A stretch of 64,000 bases of DNA from Candidatus Zipacnadum vermilionense (GTDB lineage Bacteria > Armatimonadota > Zipacnadia > Zipacnadales > Zipacnadaceae). Both the position numbers and the translations under genes were made by a program. The notes under the pieces were generated by a model, which worked only from the letters and a program-made list of their open reading frames with translations, did no database searches and had not been told where the DNA came from. The stretch lies in NCBI GenBank assembly GCA_029821755.1, contig JALGSV010000006.1, positions 1 through 64,000 on the forward strand, given 5' to 3'. Positions 14,525 to 46,923 of the stretch are shown here, in pieces (positions within the stretch are counted from its first letter, which is position 1; each line of letters starts with the position of its first letter).

Positions 14525-14545
14525 GCACCGGCGTCTCGCCGGTGC
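14525..14545. repeat. Palindromic repeat, family B
   Basis: GCACCGGCG-TCT-CGCCGGTGC, a perfect 9-bp inverted repeat between convergent genes, preceded by GGTG. Further copies are at 45001, 46774 and, diverged, 20829. Confidence 0.85.
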
Positions 14546-33594: not shown

Positions 33595-34590
33595 ATGTCG
33601 CGATCCATCTCGATCAAACTCGGCCTCGATGGGGCCTATGCCACCCGCCGGTGGGAGAAACCGGAGAATATCGTCGGGTTGGTGCGGGAGCTGGGCTACC
33701 CGTGCATGGAGTTCTGCGCTGATGTCATTGACCCGTTCTTCATGGGTGATAGGACCTTCCAGCTGGAGATGGCGGCGGAGTGCCGCGCGGTGGCGGAGAA
33801 GGTGGGCGTGGAGATCTGGAACCTGTACACCGGCATGTGCACGCACCGCTCGCACGGGTTCTCGCACTCGCACATCGCGCCCCGGCGGCGGATGGAGGAG
33901 TGGATGGTGCTGGCCATGCAGACGGCGGTGGCGCTGGGCGGCCCGCGCCTGGGAGGGCATATGGACGCGGTGCCGGTGGAGTACCTGCAGGACCCGGAGG
34001 CGTACCGCCGGGCCTGCGCCCACGCCTACGCCGCCTGGCGGCGCTTGGCGGGGCTGGGGCGCGAGGTGGGTGTCAAGGCGCTGTACGTGGAGCAGATGTA
34101 CATCCCCTCCGAGATCCCCTGGACGCTGGACCAGACCACGGAGTGCCTGCTAGCGGTCAACACCGACAGCGAAGGCGTGCCGGTCTACGTGACGGTGGAC
34201 GTGGGGCACCAGGCGGGGCAGCAGTATGGGATGCAGCCGCCGGATACGGACTACCTGGAGTGGGTGCGGCGCTTTGGGGCCTTCTCGGAGGTTATTCACC
34301 TGCAGCAGACCACCCCGGAGGGATCGCACCACTGGCCCTTCACCCCAGAGTACATCGAGGCCGGGCATATCGAGATGGACAAGTTCATGGCCGCCCTGCG
34401 GGAGGCGCATGAGTCGGCGGCGCAGAGCCCGCTAATCTCCTGCCTGGACCCGGTGGGCGAGCAGCGGCTGGTCCTGGAGGTCATTCCCGGCTCGACTAAG
34501 TGTGAGGACGTGCTGCTGGAGGAGCTGAGGGTATCGGCGGAGTATTTAGCGCAGTACGTGCCGTTTGAGGGGTTGAGGTGGGAGGTGTGA
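33595..34590 (+). CDS. Xylose-isomerase-like TIM-barrel protein
   Basis: A 331-residue member of the sugar phosphate isomerase/epimerase (AP_endonuc_2) superfamily. The start SISIKLGLDGAYATRRW, then GYPCMEFCADVI, LGGHMDAVPVEYL, LYVEQMYIPSEIPWTLD with the metal-binding glutamate, and VTVDVGHQAGQQYG with the metal-binding aspartate and histidine are as expected. It probably isomerises or epimerises a sugar or polyol. The start follows TGGAGG. Divergent from the secreted esterase operon, it may share a regulatory region at 33412-33594. Confidence 0.82.
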   Translation: MSRSISIKLGLDGAYATRRWEKPENIVGLVRELGYPCMEFCADVIDPFFMGDRTFQLEMAAECRAVAEKVGVEIWNLYTGMCTHRSHGFSHSHIAPRRRMEEWMVLAMQTAVALGGPRLGGHMDAVPVEYLQDPEAYRRACAHAYAAWRRLAGLGREVGVKALYVEQMYIPSEIPWTLDQTTECLLAVNTDSEGVPVYVTVDVGHQAGQQYGMQPPDTDYLEWVRRFGAFSEVIHLQQTTPEGSHHWPFTPEYIEAGHIEMDKFMAALREAHESAAQSPLISCLDPVGEQRLVLEVIPGSTKCEDVLLEELRVSAEYLAQYVPFEGLRWEV

Positions 34591-40558: not shown

Positions 40559-41665
40559 CTACCCCAAGAGTTCCCGCTTCTTCTCCAGGTAGTATTGCAG
40601 GCTGTCGTAGCTCACGTCCGGCTGGAAGGTGTGGTCCAGGTGCGGGACGAAGCCGCCCCGGTCGCGCAGGGGGAGGATCTTGGACTCCAACTCGCGGTCG
40701 ATCGCGGCGCGGCCCTTGGCGATCTCGCGCTTGTCTATGCCGCCGGCCAGGGCGAGGGTGGGGTACTCCTTGCGCAGCTCGCGGGGGTCCATGTCGGAGG
40801 CGGCCTCCAGGGGCCAGAGGCACGTGATGCCGGCCTCCAGCATCAGCGGGATCAGGGCGCGGGGATCGCCGTCGCTGTCCAGCCAGAAATGCTTGATCCC
40901 CGCTTGCGCCAGCCGCTCGATGATCCGCTGGTAGTAGGGCAGGAAGAGCTTGCGGAAGATCTGGGGCGAGAGCAGGGGTCCGCCCTTGCCCGCGAAGTCC
41001 TCGAAGAAGTTGAAGTAGTCGAAATCCACCTCTCCCAGCGCCCGCTCCACCGTGCCTAGCAGGAACTCCGTCTGGAACTCGATCATCTCCTCCACCAGCG
41101 CCGGATCGTCGTAGAACAGGTAAGACAGGTTCTCCGTTCCCACCCAGGAGCGCAGGCCCGAATAGAGGCCGAAGGTCCCGTTGCCCAGCAGGCACAGGGG
41201 GTAGTCGCGGGTGGCCCAGATGCGCACCCACTCGTCCCACAAGATCGAGTAGCGGGTCAGGTGGGCCGGGTTGTAGCGCTTCTTCATCTCGGTGAAGCTG
41301 GCGCGGTCGGTGACGGGGTGGGAGAGGTACTGGTCCATGCACCAGCGGGTGCCGCGAGCCGTACCTTCCTTTAGCGCCTTGGTGACGATGCCCGAGGAGC
41401 CGCGCGCGGTGAGGTACCGTTCGTCCTCCTCGAGCACCTCATACTCGAAGGGTGGCAGCAGGCCCACGTTGATCTTGGCGAAGCCGCGGCGCTCCAGGCC
41501 GAGGTAGGGCTCGCCGTCGAACCAGTCGCCGTAGATGTCGAGCTCGGGTAGGCCCTCCCCAAACCAACGCATATAGGCCTGGCCCCAGGCGCCCAACTCG
41601 TAGTCGGGCAGGCGATCAACGGACTCGAAGTTCAAAACGGCCAGTAAGCGTTCGCGATTGGTCAT
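40559..41665 (-). CDS. UroD-like protein (cluster copy 1)
   Basis: A 368-residue TIM-barrel protein of the uroporphyrinogen-decarboxylase-like family. Start MTNRERLLAVLNFESVDRLP is the family's TxRER...DR.P box. Then come LLSPQIFRKLFLPYYQRI, KHFWLDSDGDPRALIPLMLEAG and LAGGIDKREIAKG, ending GGFVPHLDHTFQPDVSYDSL. It closely resembles the protein at 43837. Biochemistry is unknown; relatives are corrinoid methyltransferases. It is the last gene of a three-gene minus-strand cluster, 73 bases after the ADP-ribosylglycohydrolase-like gene. Confidence 0.85.
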   Translation of the reverse strand: MTNRERLLAVLNFESVDRLPDYELGAWGQAYMRWFGEGLPELDIYGDWFDGEPYLGLERRGFAKINVGLLPPFEYEVLEEDERYLTARGSSGIVTKALKEGTARGTRWCMDQYLSHPVTDRASFTEMKKRYNPAHLTRYSILWDEWVRIWATRDYPLCLLGNGTFGLYSGLRSWVGTENLSYLFYDDPALVEEMIEFQTEFLLGTVERALGEVDFDYFNFFEDFAGKGGPLLSPQIFRKLFLPYYQRIIERLAQAGIKHFWLDSDGDPRALIPLMLEAGITCLWPLEAASDMDPRELRKEYPTLALAGGIDKREIAKGRAAIDRELESKILPLRDRGGFVPHLDHTFQPDVSYDSLQYYLEKKRELLG

Positions 41666-41738
41666 GATGGGGGTACCTCAGACTCCAGACTTCAGAATTC
41701 AGACTCGGCCCCTCCTGGTTGGTGCCACGGTTCCGCCT

Positions 41739-43781
41739 CTACAGCAGCTCTTGCCTCTTCTCCAGCCTTGCCAGCTTCGGCCCGGCCAGCAGGTCGGCCC
41801 ACTGGTGGGCCCGGAGCTTGATCTTGGCTAGCGGGGCCTCGCCGAACATGGCTGTCCACTCGGGCGGGACGGTCTCGGCGCCGCGGAGAGTGCCGGACAG
41901 CATGGCGGCGCGGCCGGCGATGGTGTCACTGTCGCGGCCGATGTTGGTGCCGCCGATGGCGGACTGCCGGACGTCGCCGTCGCTTATCTTGAACATGGCC
42001 AGCGCTAGGCCCAGTAGCTCCAGCGGGTCTATCTGGTGGTAGAGCAGGCAGGTATCGTTAAGCTCCTCACGCGCGGCCATCACGTCGTCGTACTTGTCCG
42101 CCACGCTCAGGCAGGCCTGCAGGTACTCGCGGGGGCTGGCGAAGGGGCGCTGGTCGAAGGTGCGGAAGGGCTCGTCGGGGGCGGCGGCCAGGGCGGCGGC
42201 GCAGACGGTGTGGACCGTGGCCTCCGGGGTGAAGGCCTCGGCGGTGGCGACGGCCAGGATGGTCGCGGCGATCATGTCCATCCCCCGCTGGTACATGTAG
42301 GAGACAGCGGTGGCGTCAATCACGGCCCAGTCCGGGTCGCCCAGGTGGTAGGCCCCCACCGGCTCCATGCACATCACCGTGGAGCCGGTGACCTGAATCC
42401 AGTGGCCGGTGATCCGCGCGTCCCAGTCGGCGCGGATCAGGTCGTAGGCGTGGCCCATGCAGGCGTTGAAGAAGTGGTCGCGGTTGAGGCGGTCGTACCA
42501 GGTCTGGCCGAAGTGCCGCGCCAGCACCGGCTTACCCTCGCGGTCGAGGTAGGTCTCCAGCAGCAACATCGCCATCTGGTTGTCGTCCTCGCCCTCCAGC
42601 CGCTCGGGGTTGAGGACGGTGGTGATGCCCCCCGGATGCTTCTTGTCCACCTCATACCAGAACGAGCCCTCCACCGGCGAGCCCATGGCGTTGCCGATAG
42701 CCCCGGCCAGGATGCAGCCATAGGCCTTGGAGAAGAGCAGGGAGTCGTCGCCGGCCTGCTCGGTGGCGAGGCGTTGGGTGGTGGCGATGATCTGGGCTTC
42801 CTGACGCAGGCGCTGGCCCACCACCGCTGCCAGTGGCTGCCAGGGGCGGGAGGTCTTCTCGCCCCAGGCGCGCCACTTCTCGGGGAAGGCCGCGGCCCCG
42901 CCGAGGGCGCCGGCGGCGGCGGCGGCGAGGATGCCTCGCACTCCCGGTCCGGCGCCGGACGCGGCCAGGGACAAGGGAAGGAACTTGCGCGCATCCTGCC
43001 CGAAGCGCTCCAGCAGGGGCAGAACGAACAGCGGCGGGTTCCACTCCAGCCAGCCGCCGCCGGCTCTGGTGTACGGGGGGCGGGCCTCGGTCAACCACCA
43101 GGCGACGAAGTCCTCCTCGGAGGCGTCGCTCGCCGCGCGCGTGTGCTGCACGTAGGGGTTGATCTGGTAGTACAGCTCCGGGCAATGCTGGTGAGCGATC
43201 TTGAGGACGGCGTCGACCGTCGCGGTAGCGTCGCCGGTGCAGCAGCCGGCGATCATGGCGGCGCACAGGCCGGCCCAGTCCGCGCCCCTGCGGCCCTGGG
43301 CAACGGAGGCGATCTCCACGCCGTCGAGGTAGGCGTAGTCCGGGTCGCCGGCGTGGAAGAGACCGACGGCGGGCATGGACGCGCAGATCAGGCCGGAGGG
43401 GGTCGCGCCGAAGCCGCTCAGGCGAGGGGTCATGCCCTCCTTGAGGACCTCCTGGGTGGAGTGAATCCCGTCCCAGGAGAAGACCGGCTGGGCGATCCCG
43501 GCGTCGTCCTGCAGCAGCTCCCCGAAGACCTCCGGCGTCGCCCGACCGCCGGCGGTGAGGTAGGCGCGGACGCCGAGGTCGGCGAAGGGCGTGAGCTTGA
43601 GGGCCTTGGTGCGATAGGGGTTCAGCACCGACTCGGCCGGGGAAAGGTCCCAGGCTAGGAGATCGGCCGGAGTCGCCAGCGGCGGGCGGGGCCGGACTGA
43701 GGCGGCCCAGCCCATTTCGGCGCCGAGGGCCGCGCCGAGCAGGGCGTCTTGAATGCGTTCGGGAAGAGGTATCACAGCCAT
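41739..43781 (-). CDS. Tandem ADP-ribosylglycohydrolase-like protein
   Basis: A 680-residue protein made of two ADP-ribosylglycohydrolase-like halves. The second (from ~residue 360) has GCILAGAIGNAMGSPVEG, where the usual GD is GN. It also has EDDNQMAML (canonical DDTQM) and late GRDSDTIAGRAAMLSGTLRG, which keeps the metal-binding D-x-D-T. The first half has LLGAALGAEMGWA but no DDT motif, so it looks degenerate. The halves share a GLFHAGDPDYA / AYHLGDPDWA repeat. Substrate unknown: ADP-ribose, dinitrogenase-reductase-like or a sugar nucleotide. Located between two UroD-like genes on the same strand with short gaps (55 and 73 bases). Confidence 0.82.
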   Translation of the reverse strand: MAVIPLPERIQDALLGAALGAEMGWAASVRPRPPLATPADLLAWDLSPAESVLNPYRTKALKLTPFADLGVRAYLTAGGRATPEVFGELLQDDAGIAQPVFSWDGIHSTQEVLKEGMTPRLSGFGATPSGLICASMPAVGLFHAGDPDYAYLDGVEIASVAQGRRGADWAGLCAAMIAGCCTGDATATVDAVLKIAHQHCPELYYQINPYVQHTRAASDASEEDFVAWWLTEARPPYTRAGGGWLEWNPPLFVLPLLERFGQDARKFLPLSLAASGAGPGVRGILAAAAAGALGGAAAFPEKWRAWGEKTSRPWQPLAAVVGQRLRQEAQIIATTQRLATEQAGDDSLLFSKAYGCILAGAIGNAMGSPVEGSFWYEVDKKHPGGITTVLNPERLEGEDDNQMAMLLLETYLDREGKPVLARHFGQTWYDRLNRDHFFNACMGHAYDLIRADWDARITGHWIQVTGSTVMCMEPVGAYHLGDPDWAVIDATAVSYMYQRGMDMIAATILAVATAEAFTPEATVHTVCAAALAAAPDEPFRTFDQRPFASPREYLQACLSVADKYDDVMAAREELNDTCLLYHQIDPLELLGLALAMFKISDGDVRQSAIGGTNIGRDSDTIAGRAAMLSGTLRGAETVPPEWTAMFGEAPLAKIKLRAHQWADLLAGPKLARLEKRQELL

Positions 43782-43836
43782 ACTATTCACCTTCCCTGCT
43801 ATCTGCTCCCCACGTTCCACTACCGATCATCGATTC

Positions 43837-44916
43837 TCACCCTCCGCACGCCTCCGCCATCTTCTCCATGTAGTACCGGAAGTTGTCAAACGACACGTCC
43901 GGCGGGAAGCTGTGGTCGGTGTGCGGGAGGTAGCCGCCCTCCTCGATGAGGGGCCGCAGGCGGGCCAGCTCGGCGTCAATCGCCGCCGGGCCCTGGGCCA
44001 CTGCGCGTTTGTCTACCCCGCCCCAGATGAGCAGGTCCTTCCCGTACTTGCGCCGCACCTCTAGCACATCCATCCCCGCTTGCGTCTCGAAGGGATAGAG
44101 CATGTTAAGGCCCGCGTCGAGCCACACCGGGATGAGCGGGTCAATCTGGCCGTCACTGTCCAGGCCGATGATCTCCACACCCCGCCCGCGCAGGAACTCC
44201 ACCACCCGGGCGTAGCGGGGGAGCATGTACTGGCGCGCCATCGCCGGGGAGAGTAGGGGGCCGGTCTTGTAGGCCATGTCCTCCCAGAAGGCGAAGGCGT
44301 CGATGTCGATTACATCCAGGACCTGGTCCATGAGCGCGATGGTTAGGTCCGCGTTGGCGTCCATCATCTCCTCCACAAACGCGGGGTCGTCGTAGAAGAG
44401 CTCACAGAGGCGCTCGACACCGACGAGGTTGCGCAAGGGACCGAAGAAACCGCCCCAGCGGTCGGAGATGACGATGAAGGGTACAGGCTGTTCCCGTTCC
44501 GCCCGGAGCTGCTCCTGCCAGCCGGGGCCGATCCGGGCCTCCAGGTCGGGCGTCATGTGCTCGGCCCAGAACTTGCGGAAGTCCGCGCGGGTCTGCACCG
44601 GGAAGCGCACGAACTGGGGCATGGAACTCATGGGCTGGTCCTTCCTCTGCCGCATGAGAATGCCCTCGTGGTTGATGAAGAGGATGGTCTCCTCGTCTTC
44701 CTCCACAACACGGTACTCGAAGGGGGGCTGGGGCTGCCACCAGCCGCTGTAGGCGATCCGCCGGTCGGCGCCCATGTTGAGATCGAAGGAGTCCGGATCG
44801 AAGCCCTCGCGCTGCCAGCGCTCCAGGGTCTCGGGCCAGGCGCCCCAGAACCAGAAGGGCGTCCGGTCGCGGGACCGGTAGTTCATGGTAGCCAGGAATC
44901 GCTCGCGGTCGGTCAT
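43837..44916 (-). CDS. UroD-like protein (cluster copy 2)
   Basis: A 359-residue paralogue of the protein at 40559. It starts MTDRERFLATMNYRSRDRTP, has LLSPAMARQYMLPRYARVV, then IIGLDSDGQIDPLIPVWLDAGLN and LLIWGGVDKRAVAQG, and ends GGYLPHTDHSFPPDVSFDNF. First gene of the cluster, 55 bases before the ADP-ribosylglycohydrolase-like gene. The start at 44916 is chosen because the family N-terminus begins there; the frame upstream is repeat DNA and lptA-like sequence. Function unknown. Confidence 0.85.
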   Translation of the reverse strand: MTDRERFLATMNYRSRDRTPFWFWGAWPETLERWQREGFDPDSFDLNMGADRRIAYSGWWQPQPPFEYRVVEEDEETILFINHEGILMRQRKDQPMSSMPQFVRFPVQTRADFRKFWAEHMTPDLEARIGPGWQEQLRAEREQPVPFIVISDRWGGFFGPLRNLVGVERLCELFYDDPAFVEEMMDANADLTIALMDQVLDVIDIDAFAFWEDMAYKTGPLLSPAMARQYMLPRYARVVEFLRGRGVEIIGLDSDGQIDPLIPVWLDAGLNMLYPFETQAGMDVLEVRRKYGKDLLIWGGVDKRAVAQGPAAIDAELARLRPLIEEGGYLPHTDHSFPPDVSFDNFRYYMEKMAEACGG

Positions 44917-45000: not shown

Positions 45001-45026
45001 GCACCGGCGAGACGCCGGTGCCACCG
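45001..45026. repeat. Palindromic repeat, family B
   Basis: GCACCGGCG-AGA-CGCCGGTGC (45001-45021), then CACCG. It lies in the 122-base gap between the lptA-like gene and the UroD-like gene downstream. Same core as 14525-14545, in opposite orientation. Confidence 0.85.
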
Positions 45027-46567: not shown

Positions 46568-46923
46568 GGAAATCGCGGAACGATGCTCGATGACTTGGGG
46601 AACGGAGAGAACGTGTCCCCCGGTCGTCGTATGGGAATTGTAGCACAAACGGTGGTGCGGAGAAAGGAGAGGCCAGGGGTTGGGCCCTGGGAGGGGGCGG
46701 GAGGTTCCACGCATCCGGGACGCAGGCTGGGAAGCCCGCGCTACCCCGAGGAGATTCACCCCCGCTCCACCCCGCACCGGCGAGACGCTGGTGCCACCGG
46801 GACCGGCAAGTTTCCCCACTTGCCACCTCCTACTTTCCACTTCCCTAGGAGGATTATCCCTGCCCCCGGCGAATAGCCTCACCAACCTCCCAAGGTTGCG
46901 TCGGCGAAAGGGTGGAACGGCCC
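46568..46923. other. Divergent intergenic region with repeats and a promoter element
   Basis: About 356 bases between the lptC-like gene (minus) and the UroD-like gene (plus). On the minus strand, TGCTACAAT at 46645-46637 is an extended -10 for the lptC-like gene, 70 bases before its start. A family B palindrome, GCACCGGCG-AGA-CGCTGGTGC with one mismatch, is at 46774-46794. A degenerate GGCTGGGAAGCCCGCGCT repeat is near 46726-46743. No small gene is supported. Confidence 0.6.

Follow-up and report, generated by a model that had tools for sequence, protein, structure and literature searches.

Two UroD-fold proteins and a tandem ADP-ribosylglycohydrolase-like protein form a conserved, patchily distributed gene module with a possible role in sugar catabolism

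We analyzed a 64,000-nt stretch of DNA from Candidatus Zipacnadum vermilionense (hereafter the window) and found three intact ORFs on the minus strand (positions 40559-44916) that encode a UroD-like protein (UroD-C), a tandem ADP-ribosylglycohydrolase-like protein (AGH) and a second UroD-like protein (UroD-A). Orthologues of these genes are found in the same order in other phyla, which exceeds what is expected by chance. We see about equal chances for and against the explanation that we favor, namely that the three genes constitute a catabolic module, conserved but patchy in its distribution, whose furanosidase-like hydrolase frees a sugar for the UroD-fold enzymes. The module probably represents an undescribed step in the digestion of a plant-derived or nucleoside-like sugar compound. 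Its components belong to known families and their combination is new: no paper treating UroD and ADP-ribosylglycohydrolase together was found in the open-access literature.

The three-gene minus-strand cluster described by the first-pass annotation of this DNA, with intergenic gaps of 55 bp (UroD-C/AGH) and 73 bp (AGH/UroD-A), was borne out by the intact reading frames and by Pfam matches to URO-D and ADP_ribosyl_GH (table 1). For AGH, an in-frame GTG at 43820 would lengthen the protein by 13 aa.

Table 1. Position of the module genes, their motifs and the upstream palindrome in the window
Feature	Position	Strand	Description
UroD-C	43837..44916	-	359 aa, first gene of module; PF01208 E=2.2e-13
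UroD-C DSDG motif	44149-44160	-	
Tandem ADP-ribosylglycohydrolase-like protein (AGH)	41739..43781	-	680 aa from ATG; PF03747 E=5.3e-30, two stretches
AGH first half	42780..43781	-	Metal ligands all absent; own invariants R80, E111, E115, G116, R120, D153, Q162
AGH second half, predicted catalytic	41826..42749	-	Residues ~345-652; PF03747 match at residues 355-641; ligand set invariant
GNAMGSPVE, residues 363-371	42669..42695	-	N364 (for usual Asp) and E371 invariant in 26/26 relatives
E398-D399-D400, for usual Thr/Ser-Asp-Asp metal ligands	42582..42590	-	Invariant in 26/26; aligned with T-D-D of 1t5j and 6dre
R616-D617-S-D619-T620, D-x-D-T metal motif	41922..41936	-	D617 and D619 invariant in 26/26; T620 in 25/26
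UroD-A	40559..41665	-	368 aa, last gene of module; PF01208 E=5.6e-10
UroD-A D263-S-D265-G266	40868..40879	-	At His-x-Cys-Gly position of MtaA-type methyltransferases; D263, D265 and G266 invariant in 41 UroD-A/-C sequences
UroD-A D344-H345	40631..40636	-	Aligned with Gly-His of HemE (4wsh); invariant in 41 sequences
21-bp palindrome, near-perfect	45001..45021	.	In 122-bp gap upstream of UroD-C

The two halves of AGH are homologous to each other (HHalign probability 99.8; E=2.3e-28) and the protein scores 105.5 bits against PF03747 (gathering score 26.2), which makes it a member of this superfamily. Its AlphaFold2 model (pLDDT 91.5; pTM 0.93) matches the folds of MJ1187, ARH3 and DraG in the PDB (Foldseek probability 1.00). 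Alignment of 26 relatives revealed that the second half presents the ligand set E-D-D plus D-x-D-T/S in all of them, with Glu in place of Thr. The GRDSDT, GN and EDDN motifs that had been read in this half by the first-pass annotation are invariant or nearly so in these relatives, and the first half, already described as degenerate, has indeed lost every metal-site residue: the predicted ligand set is complete in the second half and absent from the first. E371 occupies what we take to be the general-base position of ARH3, and the other ligand assignments are likewise taken from the alignment and from general knowledge. These results suggest that the second half is a divalent-metal-dependent hydrolase and that the metal-less first half might be a structural or substrate-shaping partner. 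In one genome (G227), each half is encoded by its own gene; these two genes are adjacent, and a UroD gene lies 0.4 kb upstream.

Relative to DraG, ARH3 and MJ1187 (PF03747), the second half thus shares the fold and keeps the positions of E371, D399-D400 and D617-x-D619-T620. However, AGH differs from these proteins by its tandem organization with a metal-less first half, by the change of the first ligand from T to E and of GD to GN, and by the sugar-operon context of its relatives. The ADP-ribose-binding motif of the AGH family is of the GNGxxMR type, and this motif is altered in the second half (TGSTVMCMEPVG).

We further analyzed the two UroD-like proteins, which had been annotated as closely related. 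UroD-A and UroD-C do belong to the same family, but they are only 39-41% identical, each has its own set of orthologues in other genomes (56-85% identity) and the window's genome encodes, at another place, a paralogue slightly closer to UroD-C (43%). The model of UroD-A (pLDDT 95.8; pTM 0.92) presents the UroD fold; its best structural match is MtaA (4ay7) and it also matches UROD (1uro, 2inf), whereas a sequence search of the PDB with the UroD-A/-C profile returned a single weak relative (4wsh). The invariant polar residues of 41 UroD-A/-C sequences include E222, D223, D263, D265, E287, K312, D344 and H345, and MtaA (4ay7) aligns LHICGN with D263-x-D265-G of UroD-A. Although they share the UroD fold with HemE (1uro, 2inf), neither protein matched the HemE model at E<=0.001. 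With the MtaA/CmuA model TIGR01463, they scored 23.1 and 18.9 bits, far from the cut-off of 235.4 bits, and the His-x-Cys ... Cys zinc site is replaced by D-x-D-G. The fold and alignable ligand positions are also shared with the MtaA, MtbA and CmuA and the CdmB, OdmB and VdmB methyltransferases; in contrast to these, the UroDs of the window present D-x-D-G and D-H for His-Cys-Cys and their locus is without corrinoid partner. Judging from their sequences, UroD-A and UroD-C are neither HemE nor classical His-x-Cys methyltransferases, with D-x-D-G ... D-H instead, and they likely represent UroD-fold enzymes of a separate "DSDG ... GG(I/V)DKR ... DH" class.

The genome of the window (4.39 Mb in 115 contigs) contains about 75 UroD-family genes and three AGH genes. 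Among these UroDs, ~30 present H-x-C-G and ~30 present x-x-D-G, which places the pair of the window in a large carboxylate class. In the whole genome, no gene reaches the cut-off of the HemE model (TIGR01464, 302.95 bits; best 53.6 bits), so the earlier statement that the UroDs lack an obvious heme-synthesis partner holds. The same genome harbors another AGH-UroD neighborhood (L049, G000:C114:126229-127785), in which a single-domain AGH directly follows, on its downstream side, a short UroD-like ORF that matches positions 1-149 and 278-342 of the profile.

Because the genome holds about 75 UroD-family genes, a UroD neighbor alone is weak evidence of linkage. Among 291 genomes searched in the phylum of the window, whose named relatives are mostly Armatimonadota, about a dozen encode long relatives of the tandem AGH. 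GTDB contigs gave about 35 such loci, distributed over Armatimonadota, Omnitrophota, Planctomycetota, Lentisphaerota, Kiritimatiellota, Chloroflexota, TA06 and Bacillota. A Victivallales locus (L059) repeats the exact order UroD-C, AGH, UroD-A; there, the gaps are 55/59 bp (vs. 55/73) and the flanking proteins are 69% and 64% identical. An orthologue of UroD-A directly adjoins AGH in 14 loci, window included (56-65% identity in the other genomes), and the phyla concerned include Armatimonadota, Omnitrophota, Lentisphaerota, Kiritimatiellota, Chloroflexota and TA06. Orthologues of UroD-C (68-85% identity) lie next to or near the tandem AGH in G290, L059 and a Planctomycetota locus (L052). In L052, the UroD-C and UroD-A orthologues are found 3.7 and 6.3 kb downstream of AGH, and in the AGH tree this locus is the neighbor of the window and its congener (88/94). 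In G189, AGH runs off one contig and UroD-A begins <=155 bp from the end of another, consistent with adjacency of the two genes. At the genome level, AGH co-occurs with UroD-A orthologues (5/7; P=1.5e-6) and with UroD-C (6/21; P=8e-5) across the 291 genomes, related genomes being treated as independent in both tests. The distances of AGH and UroD-A gave a rank correlation of 0.07 (p=0.56) and a Mantel r of 0.52 (p=0.003) in a mirror-tree comparison.

The linkage of the module is common, not universal, and its distribution is patchy. In G005, each of the three genes is on a contig of its own, UroD-C is apart in G230, and the nearest relative, G290, presents a PQQ-type gene inserted between UroD-C and AGH and yielded no UroD-A orthologue. 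No UroD neighbor was seen in about a dozen tandem-AGH loci, and UroD-A or UroD-C are also present in genomes without AGH. The idea of a shared unit is supported by the linkage in distant genomes and by the complete metal-ligand set of the second AGH half, and the scattered genes count partly against it.

In several phyla, the module is found in sugar operons, in which the isomerase-like gene encodes a xylose-isomerase-like barrel and the E1/E2 genes are PDH-like; its other neighbors include genes for rhamnosidase, apiosidase-like protein, fucosidase, sulfatases and sugar ABC transporters. In L064, an isomerase-like barrel, UroD-A, AGH, a RuBisCO-like protein and a rhamnulokinase-like kinase follow one another with gaps of 8-16 bp. 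Two loci (L067 and L068) additionally contain E1a, E1b, E2 and a solute-binding protein; the order in L068 is isomerase-like, RuBisCO-like, E1a, E1b, E2, binding protein, AGH, UroD-A and a DeoR-type regulator. Rhamnosidase-like, AGH, UroD and isomerase-like genes are found in this order in L074, and the UroD-C of G230 lies between an isomerase-like gene and E1a. A single contig of G193 carries AGH, UroD-A, the kinase, rhamnosidase-like, RuBisCO-like and isomerase-like genes, E1a, E1b and a partial UroD-C. Of the 291 genomes, 7 contain the module-linked RuBisCO-like protein (52-67% identity), and 5 of these possess AGH (P=1.5e-6, with related genomes treated as independent). Where AGH is absent, homologues of UroD-A and UroD-C are likewise seen beside or close to genes of the rhamnosidase, apiosidase-like, fucosidase, sulfatase and sugar ABC types. 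Such varied neighbors suggest that a single substrate may not fit all loci.

In the window's genome itself, a close orthologue of the module-linked RuBisCO-like protein is absent (nearest 26-30% identity) and the pathway isomerase is represented by just a 38% relative, which counts against the favored explanation. A xylose-isomerase-like gene of the window (33595-34590) was considered as a part of the module and rejected, being unrelated to the pathway isomerase (E=9.6).

Other readings of these data were weighed. UroD-A and UroD-C might be O-demethylating methyltransferases that load a corrinoid protein with methyl groups taken from methylated sugars or aglycones while AGH strips the sugar, a possibility that we regard as rather unlikely. 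UroD-superfamily O-demethylases do exist, and the O-type have their Cys ligands replaced by carboxylates or non-ligands (PMC10418091; PMC13222342); in the pair of the window, however, the His ligand is replaced along with the Cys (D-x-D for H-x-C). The window's genome encodes one B12-binding_2 corrinoid protein (211 aa) and two RACo-type activators, one of them next to it; 12/12 other AGH-bearing genomes searched gave at least one B12-binding_2 match; and UroD-C and UroD-A of L052 have an MTTB-family methyltransferase gene between them. Yet this single corrinoid protein would face about 75 UroD genes, scanning the AGH loci for corrinoid motifs revealed no credible candidate in any of them, with the already known C16 protein as the sole credible hit, and the neighbors are mostly sugar kinase, isomerase and glycosidase genes. 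Because a corrinoid partner is absent from the loci, decarboxylation or lyase chemistry is moderately preferred over O-demethylation for the UroDs.

The association could also reflect the mere abundance of UroDs and the clustering of genes in carbohydrate-rich islands, without any shared pathway. The ~75 UroD genes in 4.4 Mb and the several AGH loci devoid of UroD speak for this reading; nonetheless, the same orthologous subtype is found in the same orientation, directly adjacent and with gaps <100 bp in distant phyla, and the genes co-occur at the genome level, which makes this explanation improbable. Finally, AGH shares its fold and metal motif with DraG and ARH3 and could reverse the ADP-ribosylation of proteins or nucleic acids, as in DraG/ARH-like regulation or immunity, its UroD neighbors being incidental. 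We consider this highly improbable: the order with orthologous UroD genes is conserved in other phyla, the contexts are sugar operons, AGH carries TGSTVMCMEP where the family has the GNGxxMR-type motif, the DraG equivalog model gave no match to the window's AGH and the Tri1 NCBIfam model only 25.1 bits, far below its cut-off of 490.

Under the favored explanation of a catabolic module, the second half of AGH would cleave a furanosyl (ribose-like) bond, its target being a small molecule or a fragment of an oligosaccharide and not an ADP-ribosyl-protein. UroD-A and UroD-C would then act on the freed sugar or sugar acid, most likely as decarboxylases or in some other lyase/isomerase step; a metal bound by carboxylates and His might take part. 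In several relatives, the product might be passed to the aldose-ketose isomerase, the rhamnulokinase-like kinase, the RuBisCO-like protein and the E1/E2 proteins. The first-pass annotation tentatively suggested that a ribosylated or glycosylated compound is released and either decarboxylated or used in methyl transfer; this agrees with the sugar-catabolic neighbors, but the substrate and reaction are only proposed. A more specific scheme, which we hold to be quite unlikely, is a new route for a plant furanosidic sugar (e.g., apiose, aceric acid or a 5-deoxypentose): an AGH-fold furanosidase and UroD-fold sugar-acid decarboxylases would be followed by isomerase, kinase, RuBisCO-like protein and PDH-like E1/E2 to yield acyl-CoA and triose phosphate.

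Two described systems offer partial precedents. In E. coli yegTUV (PMC10819704), an AGH gene is accompanied by those of a sugar kinase and a nucleoside transporter, and AGH is thereby part of a small-molecule operon; unlike the module, yegTUV has a single AGH and no UroD, and its own function is unproven. A RuBisCO-like protein takes part in sugar catabolism in the D-apiose and 3-oxo-isoapionate pathways (OiaX, OiaC; PMC6302742). The linked RuBisCO-like protein matches the OiaX model weakly (115.9 bits vs. a cut-off of 700) and falls below every equivalog cut-off, and the present loci, in contrast to OiaX/OiaC, add E1/E2, AGH and UroD. If true, the catabolic role of the module would provide a first functional handle on a very large uncharacterized class of UroDs (the window's genome alone holds about 75 UroD-family genes) and on members of the AGH family outside ADP-ribosylation; both families would be tied to a RuBisCO-like pathway that looks undescribed. 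With its compact gene set, the module lends itself to in vitro tests.

Several additional observations were made. RuBisCO-like and xylose-isomerase-like genes are found together in six loci (L183, L184, L185, L186, L187 and L189), mostly with a rhamnulokinase-like kinase and E1 or E2, and such gene sets look like an undescribed pathway. In the window's genome, a different RuBisCO-like protein (26-30% identity), preceded by alcohol dehydrogenase and GFO/IDH/MocA genes, is followed by a 219-aa ORF, E1a, E1b and E2 (L173, G000:C17:10051-15210). In Bacillota, gene clusters (L085, L086, L087 and L088) combine four AGH-family genes with a PfkB kinase, a LacI regulator and genes for sugar ABC transport. 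A conserved gene of 257-272 aa is convergent with UroD-A in L054, L055, L070, L072, L078 and L084, and its L054 copy is without Pfam match. No promoter-like site was found in the 122-bp gap upstream of UroD-C. The palindrome of this gap (GCACCGGCGTCTCGCCGGTGC) occurs at 3 places in the window (14525-14545, 45001-45021 and 46774-46794; one copy with one mismatch), relative to 0.02 matches expected by chance.
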